64,000 nt of DNA, from NCBI GenBank assembly GCA_947588985.1, contig CANQBG010000003.1:1-64000 (forward strand). The letters run 5' to 3'. The translations under genes and the position numbers were made by a program. Source of the stretch: an uncultured Clostridia bacterium (GTDB lineage: Bacteria; Bacillota; Clostridia; Christensenellales; Borkfalkiaceae). Each line of letters starts with the position of its first letter. Positions within the stretch are counted from its first letter, which is position 1. Shown here piece by piece: positions 24,817-34,691 of the stretch. The notes beneath the pieces were generated by a model. It ran no database searches. It was not told where the DNA came from and saw only the letters and a program-made list of their open reading frames with translations.

Positions 24817-25875
24817 CTATAAATCGAAGGCGACGGCGGTGATGTCGTCGTGGAAGGAGCCGCAGAAGTTCTTGAGGGCGGATTTTAAGCGTTCGATGAA
24901 GCGCTCGGCGTTTTCCGAACGACTCAGGACGGCCTCGACGCGCTCCGTGCCAAACTGCTCCCCCGCGGGGCTCTTGCTCTCGATGACGCCGTCGGTCAGC
25001 AGCACGAGGATGTCCCCCGGCGCGTATGCGATGGTGCGGTCCTCATAGCGGAAGCCGGGGATCCACGTGGAGATGGGGGGCGTGCTCCCCTCGATCTCCG
25101 CGATGCCCTCGCCGTGCCGCAAGAGGATGGGCGCATTGTGACCCGCAAAACAATAGGTAAACGTGCGGCTGTGCGCGTCGATACGCACGGCAACGGCCGT
25201 GATATACGACCGCTCGTCGAGATTGAGTTCGGCAAACTTTACGTTGAGGCCGAAGAGGGCGCGGGCGGGCGAGGGTTCGCTCCGATCCCACCCCGCCTTG
25301 ACGAAGGCCGAGAGCATGCCCGCCGCCACGCCCTTCCCCGAGACGTCGGCAAGAAAGCCCATCGTCTGCCCGTCCGCTTCATAGACGTCGGGAAGATCCC
25401 CTCCGATCTCGCGGCAGGGGATATAGGTGAAGGAATAGGGCGTGCCGCTCCCCCCGGAGGCGGGCGGAAGCAGCCGCTGCTGGATGGTCTGCGCCGAATA
25501 CATCTCCTGCGCGATCTCCGTCTCATAGGCGTTGTCCACGACGCCCAAATAATACTTCCCGAGCGGGCTCACCTTCATGCGGAGGGCGAGGCCCTCCTCC
25601 CCGCTGCGGAGGATGATCTTGCGGAAGGCCGTCTTGCCCGTCCCGATGACCTCGCGGAAGAGGTTGCGCAAGGGGCAGTAGGCACAGCGCACTCCCTCGC
25701 CGCACTTGCCCTCTTTCTCGCCGCAGTCGGTGACGTCGCGGAGGGTCCCTTTGCGCCTCCCCGAACGGAAATAATCCCCGAACGCGCGGTTCATGTAGCG
25801 CACCTTATAGGACTCGTCGAGCACGATGGCCGCCGTGGGAATGTTGTCGAGCACGTCTTTATAGAGATTTGCCAT
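24817..25875 (-). CDS. PAS + PP2C (SpoIIE/RsbU-type) serine phosphatase
   Basis: PAS-like N-terminus; YIPCREIGGDLPDVYEADGQTMGFLADVSGKGVAAGMLSAFVK; GDILVLLTDGVIES. Confidence 0.9.
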   Translation of the reverse strand: MANLYKDVLDNIPTAAIVLDESYKVRYMNRAFGDYFRSGRRKGTLRDVTDCGEKEGKCGEGVRCAYCPLRNLFREVIGTGKTAFRKIILRSGEEGLALRMKVSPLGKYYLGVVDNAYETEIAQEMYSAQTIQQRLLPPASGGSGTPYSFTYIPCREIGGDLPDVYEADGQTMGFLADVSGKGVAAGMLSAFVKAGWDRSEPSPARALFGLNVKFAELNLDERSYITAVAVRIDAHSRTFTYCFAGHNAPILLRHGEGIAEIEGSTPPISTWIPGFRYEDRTIAYAPGDILVLLTDGVIESKSPAGEQFGTERVEAVLSRSENAERFIERLKSALKNFCGSFHDDITAVAFDL

Positions 25876-25876
25876 T

Positions 25877-26734
25877 TCAGCCTCGGAATACTCTGAGCTT
25901 CCCGCTCACGACGCGGGCATGGAGCGTGCGGGCATCCACGAGCTCGCCGTCGAGCTCCACGATCTTGCCCTCCGTTTGCACGATGCGGGCTTCGTCGCAG
26001 AGGATATGTTTGGTGATGGGCCGCTCCAAGATCTTCCCGCGCTTTAAGGCGAGGAGTTCGAAGAGGATCTTGCTGCGCTTGGGGCAGGAGATGACGACGA
26101 GGTCGAGCTTTCCGTCGTCTAAGACGGCGGGCGGGCAGATGGCGATGCCGCCGCCGAACTGCGAACCGTTGCACACGGCCGCGATGAAGGCCGTCTCGAA
26201 GAAGGTCTTGCCGCCCACCGTCACCTCGATCTTCTGCCCCTTGTAGGAGACGAGAGAGGCGAGGAGGCTGCGGAAATACTTGCTCCGCTTGCCGCCCTTC
26301 ATGCGGTAGCACCGCTCCAAAATGTCTACGTCGATGCCCAATCCCGCGATGTTGAGGGACTTATATTCGCCGCAGTCGATGAAGTCGGTAAACTTGGAGG
26401 GGGTGTGCAGGATGAGGTCGAGCGCGGCAAGGCCCGTGGGGATCTTGGCCTTCTCCGCGAAGTCGTTGCCCGTCCCCACGGGGATGAGGCCGAGCTCCAC
26501 GTTTTCGGGCACGGCAATGCCGCAGAGCACGTCGTTGAGCGTCCCGTCCCCGCCGATGGCGACGATGGTAACGGGGCCGCTCTCCGAGAGCCGCCGCACG
26601 ATGGCGCGCGTCTCCTCCTTGCTCTCCCCCATGTGGAAGTCGAAGGGAACGTTCTCCGCCCGCAACCGATCGGCAAGCTCGCCCAAGAGCTCTTTGCGCT
26701 TTTTGGTGTTGGGATTGACGATAAAATGGAGCAT
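25877..26734 (-). CDS. diacylglycerol/lipid kinase (YegS/BmrU family)
   Basis: IVNPNTKK..VAIGGDGTLNDVLCGI..GLIPVGTGNDFA. Confidence 0.93.
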   Translation of the reverse strand: MLHFIVNPNTKKRKELLGELADRLRAENVPFDFHMGESKEETRAIVRRLSESGPVTIVAIGGDGTLNDVLCGIAVPENVELGLIPVGTGNDFAEKAKIPTGLAALDLILHTPSKFTDFIDCGEYKSLNIAGLGIDVDILERCYRMKGGKRSKYFRSLLASLVSYKGQKIEVTVGGKTFFETAFIAAVCNGSQFGGGIAICPPAVLDDGKLDLVVISCPKRSKILFELLALKRGKILERPITKHILCDEARIVQTEGKIVELDGELVDARTLHARVVSGKLRVFRG

Positions 26735-26847
26735 TTCGCGTCTCCGTCGTAAAAAATTCTGTTTTTATTATACAACATCTTTCGGGGAATTGCAATTTTT
26801 TTCCCAATCTGCTATACTTGTTTTCGGAAAAAATTTGGAGGAGCCCT

Positions 26848-28209
26848 ATGAGAGACTCTTTGCCGCAAAGCCTTATCCGCCTCGCAGACGCCTGCCCCGC
26901 CCCCCTCTACCTCGTGGGAGGGAGCGTGCGCGACTACCTTTCGGGCGTCCTTCGCCCCGACGCCGATTGGGACCTCGCCTCCCCCATGAAGGAGGAGCAA
27001 CTTCTCGCCGCATGCGAAAAATGCGGCATCCATGTCCGAGGCGTATACCGCGCGACGGGCACCGTCAAGCTCGAGGACGACGAAAGAAACTGCTTCGAAT
27101 TCACCCGCTTCCGCTCCGATAAATACGTCCGCGGCATGCACACTCCCACGGAGATCGTCTTTACCGACGACCTCGAGGTGGACGCGCGGCGGCGGGACTT
27201 TTGCGCCAACGCCGTGTACTACGACGTAAAGGCGGGGACGTTCTCCGATCCCCTCGGCGGGACCGAAGATATCCGAAACAGACAGCTTTCCACCGTGCGG
27301 GAGGCCGGAAAGGTGTTCGGGGAGGACGGCCTGCGCCTTCTCCGCCTCGCCCGCATCGCCGCGCAGACGGGTTTTTCCCCCACCGAAGAGACGCTCGCGG
27401 GGGCACGCCGGCACGCCGCCCTCATCGAGGACATCGCGCCCGAGCGCATCTATGCGGAATTTTGCCTTCTCCTGCATGCCGACGAAAAGCACGGCGACGC
27501 TTCCGCCCCCTGCCGCGGGCTCTCCATTTTGCGGGATACGACGGTGCTTCGCCATACCATGCCCGAGCTCGCCCTTGGGGAAGGCATGTCGCAGCGCTCC
27601 GATTACCATAAGTATGACGTGCTCGAACACTCCTTCCGCTGCGTCCGCTATGCTCCCCCTTCCATCCGCTGGGCCGCCCTTTTGCACGACGTGGGCAAGC
27701 CCGCCTGTTTTTTGAAAAACGGCAACTTCTACGGCCACCCCGAGGAGGGCGCGCGCATCGCACAGGCCATGCTCACGCGTCTGCGCGCCCCCAAGGAGCT
27801 CACCAAGGAGACCGTCCTTCTCATCGCCATGCACATGCGCGACTACGACGGCAAGATGGGCGTATATAAGGTGCGGAAGAACCTGAGGACCCTCGGCCGC
27901 CTCATCCCCGCCATGCTCGCCCTCAAACAGGCGGACTACTCCGCCTGCCGGGACGACCTCTCCCCCGCCCCCACCGTCGTGCGATGGGAGAACGTCCTTG
28001 CCGACATGAAAAGAGAGGGCGTGCCCTTCACCCTCAGCGAACTCGCCGTAAACGGGAACCACCTCCGCGGGCTTGTCCCGCCCGAGAAGCTCTCCGCCCT
28101 CCTTGCCGCCCTGCTCGACTTCTGCCTCGAGGACGGCCGCCGCAACACGCCCGAAGTTCTCCTCGCCCACGCCGCCGCCATCGCGCCCAACCTCGCGGCC
28201 GCGGAGTGA
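26848..28209 (+). CDS. cca: CCA tRNA nucleotidyltransferase / poly(A) polymerase family with HD domain
   Basis: YLVGGSVRDYLSG..DADWDLASP, RRRDFCANAVYYD, and HD motif WAALLHDVGKP. Confidence 0.92.
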   Translation: MRDSLPQSLIRLADACPAPLYLVGGSVRDYLSGVLRPDADWDLASPMKEEQLLAACEKCGIHVRGVYRATGTVKLEDDERNCFEFTRFRSDKYVRGMHTPTEIVFTDDLEVDARRRDFCANAVYYDVKAGTFSDPLGGTEDIRNRQLSTVREAGKVFGEDGLRLLRLARIAAQTGFSPTEETLAGARRHAALIEDIAPERIYAEFCLLLHADEKHGDASAPCRGLSILRDTTVLRHTMPELALGEGMSQRSDYHKYDVLEHSFRCVRYAPPSIRWAALLHDVGKPACFLKNGNFYGHPEEGARIAQAMLTRLRAPKELTKETVLLIAMHMRDYDGKMGVYKVRKNLRTLGRLIPAMLALKQADYSACRDDLSPAPTVVRWENVLADMKREGVPFTLSELAVNGNHLRGLVPPEKLSALLAALLDFCLEDGRRNTPEVLLAHAAAIAPNLAAAE

Positions 28210-28340: not shown

Positions 28341-28369
28341 TTGCATTTTTCCGAAAAGTATATTATAAT
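28341..28369 (+). promoter_or_regulatory. putative sigma-A promoter of the large repeat-protein gene
   Basis: TTGCAT - 17 nt - TATAAT. Confidence 0.65.
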
Positions 28370-28409
28370 AGTCACATATCGTTGGAACGAATCAAAGTGA
28401 GGTACATCC

Positions 28410-31400
28410 ATGAGTAAGAAAGGGATCAATCAAGATCGCGACGAACTCGAATACGACGAATGGGGCGACCCCGTCGAGAGCAAACCCGCGGTGCGCAAGC
28501 GCACGCCGAACGAAGTGGACGAATGGGGAGACCCTCTCCACGACGATCCGGAGGAAAAAGCGCTCTATGTAGACGAATGGGGAGACCCCGTCGCGCGGAA
28601 AAACGGCGACGTCGCCATGGAGATCCGCAACTATAAAAAAGAGGAGGACAAGGTCCGCCTCGAAAAGCAGCTTGTGCGCGAAGGCGTCATCTATCCGCGC
28701 GGACACTATCGCCCGCACGGGCGGTTGCGCGGCGTCATCGCCATCCTTCTCGCCTTCCTCTTCGGCATCTTCGTGGTGCTCGGCGGCATCGTGGGCGTGG
28801 GCGCGTACTTCGGCACCACCAAGCTGAGCAAGGTATTCGGGGAGAGCGTCAATAAATATCTCACCGAGGACTACGCGGACATGTCCATCATCGAGCTCAT
28901 CACGGCCGTCGCCGGAGACCTCAGAGGCGGCATCTCCACGCTCGACGATATCTCCAAGTATACCCCTCTCGTCGATACCCTTTTGGATAAGGCCGACGAG
29001 TACGCCGAACAGTTTGGCGTGGAATACGACCGCGCCACCCTCAAATCCACCAAATTCGGGGATATTTGGGGGTATGTGTATAACGACGTCGTGAAGAACA
29101 TCGCCGTCGGCAAGGCGCTCGCCGGGGCCGGGTTCACCGATCCCACCGTGCTCGCCATTTTCCTCGGGGAAGAGGGCGTGGACTACACCGTCGACGAGGA
29201 GGGCAAGATCACCATCCTCGAGAGCGGCAGAACGCCCGTCACCGTAAACGACCTCATGACCAACGTCATGGGTACCCTCAACACCGTCCAGCTCGGCCTC
29301 ATCCTCGGCCTCAACAAGGATGTGACGGAGGACAAGATTTTCGGGGACAACGCCGTGATGTATGCCCTCTCCTATGGGAAATACGGGCAGGACTACGAGC
29401 TCCAGGACGGCAGGATCCACGTGCTCACCGACAAGGCCGGCAGCGAAGGGTTCGTGTTCCCCACCGCCATCGGGGACCTCGTCAATAATACCAACGCCGT
29501 CGTCAACAGCCTCGAGCTCGGCTCCATGCTCGGGCTCTCGGGCGGATTTACCGAAGAACAATACAGCGGCAACGCCGTGATGTATGCCCTCGCCTATGGC
29601 ACCGAGGGGCGGGACTATCAGGTGGTCTGGACGGAGGGCGTCGGCAAGATCGAGCCCCTCGAAGGCCGCAACGAAAATTATCCCACCACCGTCGGCGGGC
29701 TCACGAGCGGTTCGAGCGACTTCATCAACACCATCGAGCTCGGCTCCCTGCTCGGCATCGCAAGCGGCTTCTCGAAAGAGGATTACGACGCCAACTCCCT
29801 CATGTACTCCCTCGCCTATGGCACGGAGGGCACCGACTACACCGTGGAGTGGAACAACGGCGTGGGCACGATCGTCATGATGGAGGATAGGAAGGCCACC
29901 TCGGTGGGCGATCTCACTTCGCGCTCCAATGAGATCATCAACGGCCTCGAGCTCGGCTCCATGCTCGGCATCGGGACCGGCTTCTCGCAGGAGGACTACG
30001 AGAAGAACACCCTCATGTACTCCATCGCCTATGGCGCGGAGGGCACCGACTACACCGTGCAGTGGAACAACGGCGTGGGCACGATCGTCATGATGGCGGA
30101 CAAGAAGGCCAAGACGATCGAGGATCTCACCAAGAATTCCAACGACCTCATCAACGGCCTTGAGCTCGGCTCCATGCTCGGCATCGCGAGCGGCTTCTCG
30201 CAGGAGGACTACGAGAAGAACACCCTCATGTATTCCATCGCCTACGGCAACGAAGGCACCGACTACACCGTGGAATGGGACGCCGAAGGCAAGGGCAAAG
30301 TCGTCATGATGGCGGACAAGAAGGCCACCACCGTCGGCCAGCTCACCACGAGCTCCAACGACCTCATCAACGGCCTCGAACTCGGCGCCATGCTCGGCAT
30401 CGCGAGCGGCTTCTCGAAGGAAGAATACGAGAACAACACTCTCATGTATTCCATCGCCTACGGCAACGAGGGCACCGACTACACCGTCGAATGGGACAAA
30501 GACGACAAGGGTAAGGTCACGCCCCTCGAAGGCCGCAACGAGAAGTACCCCACCACCGTCGGCGGGCTCACCACGAATTCCAACGACCTCATCAACGGCC
30601 TCGAGCTCGGCACCATGCTCGGCATCGGCTCCGACGTCACCGAGGAAGATTTGAAGGAAAACGCCCTCATGTTCGCCCTCTGCTACGGCACCCGCGGCGA
30701 AGATTACGAGATCGTAGGGGGCAAGGTCGTCATGAAGGAGGGCAAGACGGCCACCACCGTCGGAGAGCTCACCACGAGCTCCAATGGCCTCATCCAAGGC
30801 ATGGAAGTGGAGACGCTCATGGGCATCAAACCCACCTCCGATAAGCTCATGCACTACATCGCCTACGGCCCCGAGATGCAGAAGGGCGAAATCCCCTACA
30901 CGCAGGCGGGGAACGCATGGACAGACGCAAAAGACCGGCCCGTCGATGCGCATGGCTACCTGCTTGGCACAGACGGAAACTACCTCATGGAAAAGGGTGA
31001 GGATGCAGACGGCAACGAGATCGACCAATACGCGGGCGGCGGCAGATACGTCTATACCTACGACGGAAACGGGGCCATCACGGGCGTTCAAATGTTGCCC
31101 GACCCCAACGACCCTACGGGCAAGCCCTATCCCAAGCGCACGGTCGCAAACCTCACGGCCGACGACGCGGACATTCTCGGGGGCATGAAGATCGGAGACG
31201 TGACGGAGATCGACGAAGATAGCTCCGGCCTCATGCAAGCCATGAAGGATTGGACGCTCGACGACCTCAAAGACCAGAGCAAGATCGAAAGCCTCACGAT
31301 CGGACAACTGCTCGACGTAGAAGAACAGCAAGGCGAAACCTCCAACATCATTTGGGCGCTCAAAGATAAAACGCTCGCAGCGCTTAAAGATCAAAATACC

Positions 31401-33425
31401 ATCAACGAATTACAACTCTCTGCCATCCTCACGATCGACGAAGATAGCTCCGGCCTCATGCGCGCCATGCAGGATTGGAAGCTCAGCGACCTCAACAGTC
31501 AAGATAAGATCGAGGGCCTCACGATCGGTGCAGTACTCGACGTGGATACCTCCGATACTTCCACAGACTCCAAACTCATGAAGGCTCTCGCGGGCAAAAC
31601 TTTCGCAGAGCTGAAAGGCGAAGATGCGCTCGATGGCTTGACGATCGGGGAAATTCTCGACGTGAATGAGGACGACTCCAAGCTTATGAAGGCCCTCTCC
31701 GGAAAGACTGTCGAACAGCTGAAAGGCGAAGATGCGCTCAATGACTTGACGATCGGGGAAATTCTCGACGTGAATGAGGACGACTCCAAGCTCATGAAGG
31801 CTCTCTCCGAAAAGACTGTCGAACAGCTGAAAGGCGAAAATGCACTCGATGACCTTTTGCTTGGCGATATCCTTGACGTAGACGAAAATAGCTCCAAGCT
31901 CATGCAGTCCCTTGCGAATAAGCAGGTGGGCGATCTCAAAGAAAAGGATACCATCGAAAATCTCAAACTCGGGGATATCATTGAGATCAGCAAGGATGAC
32001 ACGGGGCTCATGGCGGCCATGCAAGATTGGAAGGTCTCCGACCTCAAGAATCAAAACCGCATCGAACGCCTCCGCATCGGCCAGATCATCGCCGTGGGAG
32101 AAGAGACTTCCGGCTTCATGAAGACCATTTCGACATGGCGCATCAAAGATCTCTCCGATTCCTCCAAAATCGAATCTTTGAAGCTCGGGGACGTTATCGC
32201 AATTGACGATGAGACGGGCATTCTTGCGGCGCTCAAAGATACGCAGATCGGAAGACTGCAAGATGGGATCAATGAGCTCACGCTCACCCAACTCCTTGGC
32301 GACTTGAGCGGAAATACCATCTTGAAGGGGCTCGCAAACAGCACCGTTGCCTCCCTCTCGCACGACATTCAGGAGCTCACCGTCAGCACCATCTTCGGAG
32401 ACCAAATCTATTCCTACATGAAGATCGAAGGCGGTGTTACCTATCAAACCCTTTACGAAAATTATTTCCGCAATCACGCAACGCAGCACGGCGACACGTA
32501 TCTGCCCAAGGCATATACGCCGAACAATTTGGAGACCCGCTTGTTCATCAATGATAAAGAGGTCCTCAAAGGCTATTTCGACAGTGCCGATAAACTATAC
32601 GCCGGGAACGCCCTCCGCGACGAAAATGGAAACTACTACTATAACTCGAAAGACTCCTTGACGGTTCTCACCGAATATAAGCAAGTCGTCTACAGCGGCA
32701 CCGCTATCGACTACCAGCCCCTTCCCGAGACTGTTCAGCCCGAGGATATCCTTTCGGACGATTACGGCGGATACTACTATACCGAAACCGGAGAGGACGG
32801 TTCCCATACCAAGGTCGAAGTCGAAAAAGTCGTCACGGGTTACACACTCAACGGCACCTCGCTCACGCAAGGCGCGGACGGCAATTGGCTGCTCGACGGA
32901 AAGGCGGTCGAGGTCATCACTGAGGGCGAACAGGCCTATCTCCTCACCCGTGTAAGCCTCGAGGAAAAGTATTACGAAAAAGATACTCCTGCGACGACCC
33001 ACTCGCTTTCCACACCCGTTGAAAAGCGTTTCTATGACGGCACTACGCAGCTCGACCGCTATGTCTCGGGCGTGTGGTTCCTCCTTCTCGCAGAGACCTC
33101 GGCCGATGAGCAACTTCCCGCGGATGGCCAAGAAGGCAAACCCGGCAAACTTACCTTCGACAAAGATCCCAAGCTCACCGAGATCGCTACAAGCGTTTCT
33201 GAGGTCAACACGACGCTCACCGACACCGCGCTTTGGAAACTCTACTTCGTCGGCGTTTTGCCCGATGATCCTGCCGTGACGTTGGGGATAACAGTAAGCT
33301 TTACAGGCGAACATGGCTCGCGAACCGTTACCGACCTCAGCGACATTACGATTTCCGAACTCGTGCCCTTCATCGCAAAGGTCTCAGAGCTCCTAAACAA
33401 GATCCCCGGCGGCCTCGGCGGTTAA
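28410..33425 (+). CDS. large single-TM surface protein with two classes of tandem repeat
   Basis: Cytoplasmic tail with three DEWGDP motifs, one TM (GVIAILLAFLFGIFVVLGGIVGVGAYF), then ~70-aa and ~36-aa repeats sharing a core TVxxLxxxSNxLINGLELGxMLGI / TVxxLKxxDxIxxLTIGxILDV. Confidence 0.85.
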   Translation: MSKKGINQDRDELEYDEWGDPVESKPAVRKRTPNEVDEWGDPLHDDPEEKALYVDEWGDPVARKNGDVAMEIRNYKKEEDKVRLEKQLVREGVIYPRGHYRPHGRLRGVIAILLAFLFGIFVVLGGIVGVGAYFGTTKLSKVFGESVNKYLTEDYADMSIIELITAVAGDLRGGISTLDDISKYTPLVDTLLDKADEYAEQFGVEYDRATLKSTKFGDIWGYVYNDVVKNIAVGKALAGAGFTDPTVLAIFLGEEGVDYTVDEEGKITILESGRTPVTVNDLMTNVMGTLNTVQLGLILGLNKDVTEDKIFGDNAVMYALSYGKYGQDYELQDGRIHVLTDKAGSEGFVFPTAIGDLVNNTNAVVNSLELGSMLGLSGGFTEEQYSGNAVMYALAYGTEGRDYQVVWTEGVGKIEPLEGRNENYPTTVGGLTSGSSDFINTIELGSLLGIASGFSKEDYDANSLMYSLAYGTEGTDYTVEWNNGVGTIVMMEDRKATSVGDLTSRSNEIINGLELGSMLGIGTGFSQEDYEKNTLMYSIAYGAEGTDYTVQWNNGVGTIVMMADKKAKTIEDLTKNSNDLINGLELGSMLGIASGFSQEDYEKNTLMYSIAYGNEGTDYTVEWDAEGKGKVVMMADKKATTVGQLTTSSNDLINGLELGAMLGIASGFSKEEYENNTLMYSIAYGNEGTDYTVEWDKDDKGKVTPLEGRNEKYPTTVGGLTTNSNDLINGLELGTMLGIGSDVTEEDLKENALMFALCYGTRGEDYEIVGGKVVMKEGKTATTVGELTTSSNGLIQGMEVETLMGIKPTSDKLMHYIAYGPEMQKGEIPYTQAGNAWTDAKDRPVDAHGYLLGTDGNYLMEKGEDADGNEIDQYAGGGRYVYTYDGNGAITGVQMLPDPNDPTGKPYPKRTVANLTADDADILGGMKIGDVTEIDEDSSGLMQAMKDWTLDDLKDQSKIESLTIGQLLDVEEQQGETSNIIWALKDKTLAALKDQNTINELQLSAILTIDEDSSGLMRAMQDWKLSDLNSQDKIEGLTIGAVLDVDTSDTSTDSKLMKALAGKTFAELKGEDALDGLTIGEILDVNEDDSKLMKALSGKTVEQLKGEDALNDLTIGEILDVNEDDSKLMKALSEKTVEQLKGENALDDLLLGDILDVDENSSKLMQSLANKQVGDLKEKDTIENLKLGDIIEISKDDTGLMAAMQDWKVSDLKNQNRIERLRIGQIIAVGEETSGFMKTISTWRIKDLSDSSKIESLKLGDVIAIDDETGILAALKDTQIGRLQDGINELTLTQLLGDLSGNTILKGLANSTVASLSHDIQELTVSTIFGDQIYSYMKIEGGVTYQTLYENYFRNHATQHGDTYLPKAYTPNNLETRLFINDKEVLKGYFDSADKLYAGNALRDENGNYYYNSKDSLTVLTEYKQVVYSGTAIDYQPLPETVQPEDILSDDYGGYYYTETGEDGSHTKVEVEKVVTGYTLNGTSLTQGADGNWLLDGKAVEVITEGEQAYLLTRVSLEEKYYEKDTPATTHSLSTPVEKRFYDGTTQLDRYVSGVWFLLLAETSADEQLPADGQEGKPGKLTFDKDPKLTEIATSVSEVNTTLTDTALWKLYFVGVLPDDPAVTLGITVSFTGEHGSRTVTDLSDITISELVPFIAKVSELLNKIPGGLGG

Positions 33426-33583: not shown

Positions 33584-33871
33584 ATGCAGAAATACGAGAT
33601 GCTCATTCTGCTCAAGAGCGCTATGGAGGATGACGCCAAGGAGGCCGAACTCAAAAAGTACGCCGACATCGTCACCAATATGGGCGGGAGTGTGGAAGCA
33701 ACCGAGAAATGGGGCGTGAAAAAGACGGCTTACCCCATCCAAGATGAAACGGATGCTTACTTCGCACTCATGACCTTCACTGCGCCCGGGAACGTTGTAG
33801 CCGAGCTCGACCGCGTCGCGGGGATCTCGAGCGACGTCCTTCGCCGTATGATCACAAAAGTAGAGGAATAA
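33584..33871 (+). CDS. rpsF: 30S ribosomal protein S6
   Basis: MQKYEMLILLKSAMEDDAKE..KKTAYPIQDETDAYFALMTF. Confidence 0.96.
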   Translation: MQKYEMLILLKSAMEDDAKEAELKKYADIVTNMGGSVEATEKWGVKKTAYPIQDETDAYFALMTFTAPGNVVAELDRVAGISSDVLRRMITKVEE

Positions 33872-33874
33872 GAA

Positions 33875-34315
33875 ATGAACAAGGTGTTTTTGATCGGAAA
33901 TCTCACGCGCGACCCCGAGCTTACCCAAACGGCCGGCGGTGTGAGCGTGTGCCACTTCGCCATCGCGGTCAACCGCGCCTACACCTCGCAGGACGGCGAA
34001 CGCCAGACCGACTTCTTCAACATCACCGCTTGGCGCGGCCTTGCCGATACCGTCGCGCGGTATGTGAAGAAAGGCTCCAAAGTCGCAGTCTCCGGCAGCA
34101 TTCAGATCCGTAATTACGAGGATAATCAGGGGCAGCGCCGCACCGCAGTAGACGTCATCGCACAAGACGTGGAATTCCTCACCACGAGGACAAGCGGCGG
34201 CGACGATTTCTACGACAACACCCCCGCGCCCGCCAACGAGCGGGGCAATCAAGCGCCCGCAAAGCGGAAGCCGCAGCTCGAATCCTTCGACGACGACGGC
34301 GACATCCCGTTTTGA
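33875..34315 (+). CDS. ssb: single-stranded DNA-binding protein
   Basis: MNKVFLIGNLTRDPELTQTAGGVSVCHFAIAVNR and acidic tip DDDGDIPF. Confidence 0.97.
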   Translation: MNKVFLIGNLTRDPELTQTAGGVSVCHFAIAVNRAYTSQDGERQTDFFNITAWRGLADTVARYVKKGSKVAVSGSIQIRNYEDNQGQRRTAVDVIAQDVEFLTTRTSGGDDFYDNTPAPANERGNQAPAKRKPQLESFDDDGDIPF

Positions 34316-34349
34316 GGCGCACCCCCCAAACTTATAAGGAGATATCATT

Positions 34350-34691
34350 ATGGAAGAGAACGAAGTGATGACCGCTCCCGTGGAAGAGCCCGCAGAAGAG
34401 CCCCAGGCGGAACCCGCCGCGCCCCGCGAAAGAAGCGAGCGCAGTGAGAGAGGCGAACGCCCCGCGAAGAAAGGGTTCAAGAAGCAGAACTTCAAGAAAG
34501 TCTGCCTCTTCTGCCAGGAGAAATCGGAAATCAACTATAAAGAAGCGGCAAAGCTCAGAAAGTTCATCGCGGAGGGCGGAAAGATCCTTCCCCGCCGCAT
34601 GACGGGCACCTGCGCCAAGCACCAGAGAGAACTCTCCGTTGCCATCAAGCGCGCCCGCGTCGCTTCCCTTCTGCCCTTCAAAGCAGACTAA
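34350..34691 (+). CDS. rpsR: 30S ribosomal protein S18 with N-terminal extension
   Basis: [52 protein letters not shown]. Confidence 0.95.

Follow-up and report, generated by a model that had tools for sequence, protein, structure and literature searches.

What kind of protein is encoded by the long, internally repetitive gene of the window (the whole 64,000-nucleotide stretch of DNA analysed here), and what might it do at the cell envelope? An initial annotation, made from the letters alone, had proposed a 1671-residue surface protein in which two nested classes of repeats build an extended rod or envelope-spanning structure belonging to no named family. The open reading frame at 28410-33425 is real and its proposed length was borne out; it begins with ATG, carries GTGAGG a few bases 5' of this codon, and is present in a single copy in its own genome (1.6 Mb, 83.5% complete). 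An open frame of 1000 amino acids running antisense to it (window 28392-31394, minus strand) was taken as a shadow ORF of GC-rich codon use rather than as a gene. The coordinates of the gene, its expression signals, its neighbors and the parts of its product are collected in Table 1.

Table 1. Features of the repeat-protein locus, in window coordinates
Feature	Coordinates	Strand	Basis or remark
cca (tRNA nucleotidyltransferase), 5' neighbor	26818..28209	+	constant across genus
Putative sigma-A-type promoter TTGCAT-17-TATAAT	28341..28369	+	recurs 5' of orthologs
Putative ribosome binding site GTGAGGT	28397..28403	+	read from sequence
Whole repeat protein, 1671 aa	28410..33425	+	single copy in genome
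Predicted cytoplasmic tail, residues 1-108	28410..28733	+	three DEWGDP motifs; ortholog alignment
DEWGDP motifs in tail	28455, 28518, 28572	+	DNA pattern search of genome
Predicted single transmembrane helix, residues 109-131, second half glycine-rich	28734..28802	+	hydropathy and flanking charge, 45 homologs
Predicted membrane-proximal helical region, residues 132-210	28803..29039	+	AlphaFold2 N-half model
Nine units of the long class (~70 aa; core and beta-hairpin insert), residues 211-829	29040..30896	+	
Insert after hybrid unit, residues 830-910, ~80 aa	30897..31139	+	ortholog alignment; beta strands in model
Eleven units of the short class (~36 aa), residues 911-1320	31140..32369	+	residues 1064-1171 are lineage-specific copies
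Predicted beta-rich C-terminal domain, residues 1375-1542	32532..33035	+	AlphaFold2 C-half model
Conserved C-terminal end: DRYxSGVWxLLL ... LWxLYFxxxLxxxP ... helix	33036..33422	+	alignment
rpsF-ssb-rpsR, 3' neighbors, own spacer	33584..34691	+	constant across genus

The perfect -10 element and the exact 17-base spacing of the window's promoter recur 5' of some twelve orthologs from other species, and the recurring promoter (TTGnnn-17-TATAAT) appears in many orthologs to be of the vegetative, housekeeping-like type. In some species rmuC lies between cca and the repeat gene (for example locus L037, 5843-6973); it is not there in the window. Divergent from and upstream of cca, the window also carries an RsbU-like phosphatase gene and a diacylglycerol-kinase-like gene (24817-26734, minus strand), a pair identified by eye and by synteny whose position is kept across the genus.

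Repeat classes, topology and predicted fold

Tandem Repeats Finder detected two periods, one of 213 bases over positions 29683-30627 (score 1095) and one of 108 bases over positions 31566-31853 (score 471). The long class described in the initial annotation stands, but its count of about eight becomes nine, with the first and last units degenerate, and the estimate of about eleven short units was matched by the number counted here. That annotation had mentioned neither the hybrid unit with its ~80-residue insert, nor the DEWGDP tail, nor the C-terminal domain as a part of its own. Genus-wide profiles of the long and short units, built from non-overlapping units after removal of overlapping rows, align over 34 columns (E 4.8e-8, probability 95%, score 33.4), and the decoys scored far lower: none of 100 column-permuted profiles exceeded 15.0, and the reversed profile reached 12.0. 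When only units of the window were compared, the match between the classes was weaker (P 1.9e-4, probability 48%, with shuffled controls). The profile comparison indicates that both repeat classes descend from one core, as had been proposed from the motif that they share.

Adjacent long units reach 84% DNA identity and the short units at residues 1064-1099 and 1100-1135 are 93% identical, so the suggestion of recent duplication between neighbors was correct. The nearest relatives of the short units at residues 911, 949, 988, 1024, 1173, 1208 and 1244 are units of other species, and the units at residues 1064, 1100 and 1136 are nearest to one another. Since the latter are mutually closest and the outer ones closest to other species, the array has expanded in its middle part in the lineage of the window. 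By sequence similarity, the outer short units are orthologous between species and some of the middle ones are recent duplications.

A single N-terminal transmembrane helix with a positive N-terminal flank was observed in 45 of 45 homologs examined for hydropathy and flanking charge, and no second separate transmembrane segment was found in these homologs. The predicted orientation is N-in, C-out, and the helix and its flank support the surface location that had been assigned to the protein. On the predicted cytoplasmic side, the DNA pattern for DEWGDP occurs three times in the whole genome, every time in the tail of the repeat protein, and the tail also contains a basic juxtamembrane stretch (EKQLVREGVIYPRGHYRPHGRLRG) that is conserved in the ortholog alignment. 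AlphaFold2 models of the N-terminal and C-terminal halves, built on only five sequences, gave a pLDDT of ~70-85 across both repeat classes, with global pTM values of 0.30 and 0.49 that would be expected of a long chain, yet call for caution. In these models, the short unit is predicted to consist of four short helices and the long unit of the same core with a beta-hairpin, consistent with the hairpin-like insert initially read from the letters, and consecutive repeats form an elongated solenoid, as the proposed extended rod would.

Searches for a known family or fold yielded no Pfam or NCBIfam family above cut-off for the repeat protein, no PDB match by sequence or by fold, nothing in a fold search of the viral models of BFVD, and no description of the family in the literature searched; the C-terminal domain likewise had no relative in Pfam or PDB searches. 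Without a convincing match among PDB structures or viral models, the repeat fold may be new. Several candidates were considered and rejected. The long units bear a weak, sub-cut-off likeness to the Cu_amine_oxidN1 stalk repeat (PF07833; E 1.8e-4, 21.9 bits against a curated cut-off of 24.2), which matched none of eight homologs. Foldseek matched MurA (E 2.6e-3, TM 0.08, rmsd 21) as well as SH3b wall-binding domains (E 0.35 or worse), in both cases too weakly. Leucine-rich repeats are alike in forming a solenoid of short units with Leu/Ile at regular spacing, but LRR_11 reached 14.2 bits against a cut-off of 29, no LRR model scored over its cut-off, and no LRR structure was among the Foldseek matches listed.

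Distribution, length variation and loss

The absence of a named family had been noted from the outset, and it holds in that nothing matched over cut-off; the protein is nevertheless not a singleton, but a member of a large, vertically inherited family of one order. Orthologs were found in 28 of the 37 genomes of the genus, with lengths of 428-1671 residues, an approximately fourfold spread between species. Wherever the flanks could be read in the genus, the gene sits between cca (followed by rmuC in some genomes) and rpsF-ssb-rpsR, and a second genus of the window's family shows the same cca-rpsF gene order. Nine genomes of the genus do not have the gene: in eight of these, rpsF comes immediately after cca or after cca plus rmuC, and in the ninth it comes immediately after rmuC, with the contig ending there. 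Mapped onto a tree of six linked genes, this distribution requires at least three losses in the genus, and the repeat gene is therefore not essential.

Beyond the genus, a 115-column repeat profile found relatives within the order in 99 of 396 genomes, which fall in 25 of its 142 genera. It matched nothing among the sampled genomes from other orders of the class and, in a sample of the phylum, matched the window's own genome only. At this profile sensitivity, at which more divergent members may be missed, the family appears confined to one order of Clostridia. Its members have in common one N-terminal, glycine-rich transmembrane helix and the ~36-residue core, and their inserts are wholly different between taxonomic families. 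The search for the repeat protein found it on no phage or plasmid, and it is vertically inherited at a fixed locus. The family offers a natural experiment in which one core unit has given rise to two classes, with a roughly fourfold length range and repeated loss at a fixed position, and it is missing from Pfam and NCBIfam though common in one order of Clostridia.

Linkage with cvpA and possible function

In two other families of the order, f3 and f24, cvpA lies directly upstream of the repeat gene on the same strand in every genome in which both genes were placed (24 of 24 and 18 of 18, respectively, or 42 of 42), and its identity was confirmed by PF02674 above cut-off at six of six loci tested. 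For f3 and f24, this adjacency argues strongly that the two genes are functionally linked. The two genes are apart in f1 (the family of the window), f8 and f19, where the partnership is therefore assumed, and cvpA was not identified in the window's genome (83.5% complete); the window's protein would be a CvpA partner by extension. CvpA also occurs where the repeat protein is absent and is widespread; the control genomes of E. coli and B. subtilis, for example, gave matches. It is presumed to be a partner (CvpA/Colicin_V, PF02674) and not a homolog, as the repeat protein has one transmembrane helix and a large external part. In enterics, CvpA is an inner-membrane protein needed for resistance to the bile salt deoxycholate, and a role in export has been suggested (PMC6705877). 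Within the genus, some cvpA genes encode an additional loop a few tens of residues long and others do not (loci L154-L173). The long-loop form is present in seven of the nine genomes that have no repeat protein; a correlation between repeat loss and the long loop was rejected as shared ancestry, with at most three independent pairs and a sign test of p = 1.

With regard to the envelope itself, a search of 61 genomes from the genus and order had no match to Omp85 (PF01103), with 7 of 14 control genomes positive, and Spo0A was found in 51 of the 61 relatives. The absence of Omp85 and the frequent presence of Spo0A indicate that these cells are probably monoderm spore-formers; with no Omp85, an outer-membrane bridge is unlikely, and the envelope-spanning alternative of the initial annotation was not supported in this respect.

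The reading that we prefer, somewhat short of even odds (roughly 0.45), is that of a type II membrane protein with an external helical solenoid in or through the wall, which would be an ancestral partner of CvpA and act as a tether or scaffold. The protein would pass the membrane once (N-in, C-out), and tandem duplication of one ~36-residue core would have built the long external solenoid. The core would tolerate lineage-specific inserts (the beta-hairpin in the window's protein), the beta-rich C-terminal domain would cap the solenoid, and the number of units would set its length. Given an apparently monoderm cell, the rod would enter or cross the peptidoglycan layer, lying within the wall or beyond it. 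The transmembrane helix would pack with a membrane partner, ancestrally CvpA, the cytoplasmic tail would bind a cytosolic partner, and the repeat protein would tether or scaffold an envelope complex that contains CvpA. The architecture is well supported: the repeats, the family, its synteny and losses and the adjacency to cvpA are observed, the topology and the solenoid are predictions, and partner binding and tethering are inferred.

Alternatively, the protein could be an adhesin-like or decoy surface protein, with a rod that shows its C-terminal domain or inserts to the host, to neighbors or to phages, and with a repeat number that alters reach or antigenicity. The length range within the genus, the species-specific duplication of units and the differing inserts would all suit this role, but we consider it unlikely because there is no Pfam adhesin domain or C-terminal wall anchor, because the gene is single copy and vertically inherited at a fixed locus, and because an old linkage to cvpA, kept in two families, speaks for a role close to the membrane. 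In Gram-positive stalks with sortase anchors, such as SasG and Rib-type proteins, external tandem repeats differ in number from strain to strain or from species to species. The repeat protein resembles them in its tandem external repeats of varying number, but it has an N-terminal transmembrane anchor instead of LPxTG, its units are predicted to be helical, and it has no Pfam domain in common with them. A sortase-anchored surface protein was rejected, as the C-terminus, which ends LNKIPGGLGG, contains no sortase motif and does not show the LPxTG-type motif, transmembrane segment and basic tail of such proteins, and the only transmembrane helix is N-terminal.

A sporulation protein spanning the intermembrane space between forespore and mother cell, like SpoIIIAH and SpoIIQ, would have a compatible topology, and most of these genomes encode Spo0A. 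In f3 and f24, cvpA and the repeat gene also have a yyaC-like DUF1256 gene as a neighbor, although yyaC and cvpA remain paired even where the repeat gene sits elsewhere. This explanation is improbable because, of the nine genomes in the genus without the repeat protein, eight retain Spo0A, and because the promoter in many orthologs is of the housekeeping-like type. Selfish, slippage-driven expansion, with no function beyond that of a short core membrane protein, would account for the few units of the shortest orthologs (428 residues) and for the repeated loss of the gene. Against such expansion, which we judge quite improbable, the outer units, the transmembrane helix and the C-terminal end are conserved across species while the middle grows, and the frame is open in the orthologs seen in the genus, with one in-frame TGA in one ortholog. 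Finally, a lipid-transfer bridge of the AsmA/TamB kind is exceedingly improbable, as the likeness, an N-terminal transmembrane anchor and then a long extended stretch of repeats, is only superficial, no AsmA/TamB profile matched the window protein or eight homologs in the Pfam scan, the repeats are predicted by moderate-confidence AlphaFold2 models to be helical and not a beta-taco with a hydrophobic groove, and cells without Omp85 probably have no outer membrane.

The tether or scaffold reading extends to a bolder and rather unlikely form, in which an order-specific envelope system consisting of a helical solenoid of unsolved fold, length-tunable by duplication, would cross the wall of monoderm, spore-forming Clostridia and work with CvpA. 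If this were true, CvpA would gain an external arm and a testable role. To our knowledge, no mechanism of CvpA is settled, and a conserved neighbor with a large external domain is a concrete lead on its role.

Outlying homologs

Homologs from f19 (L062 2916-8000, L114 4609-8718 and L121 4998-10595) carry Cys/His-rich inserts, with 22-44 Cys per protein and motifs like HTHTxxCYGxVWY that look metal-binding by sequence; these inserts have no counterpart in the window. In f29, a match to the repeat profile lies in an open frame of 4899 amino acids (locus L122 1-12003, G065:C15, partly read), by far the largest candidate relative.
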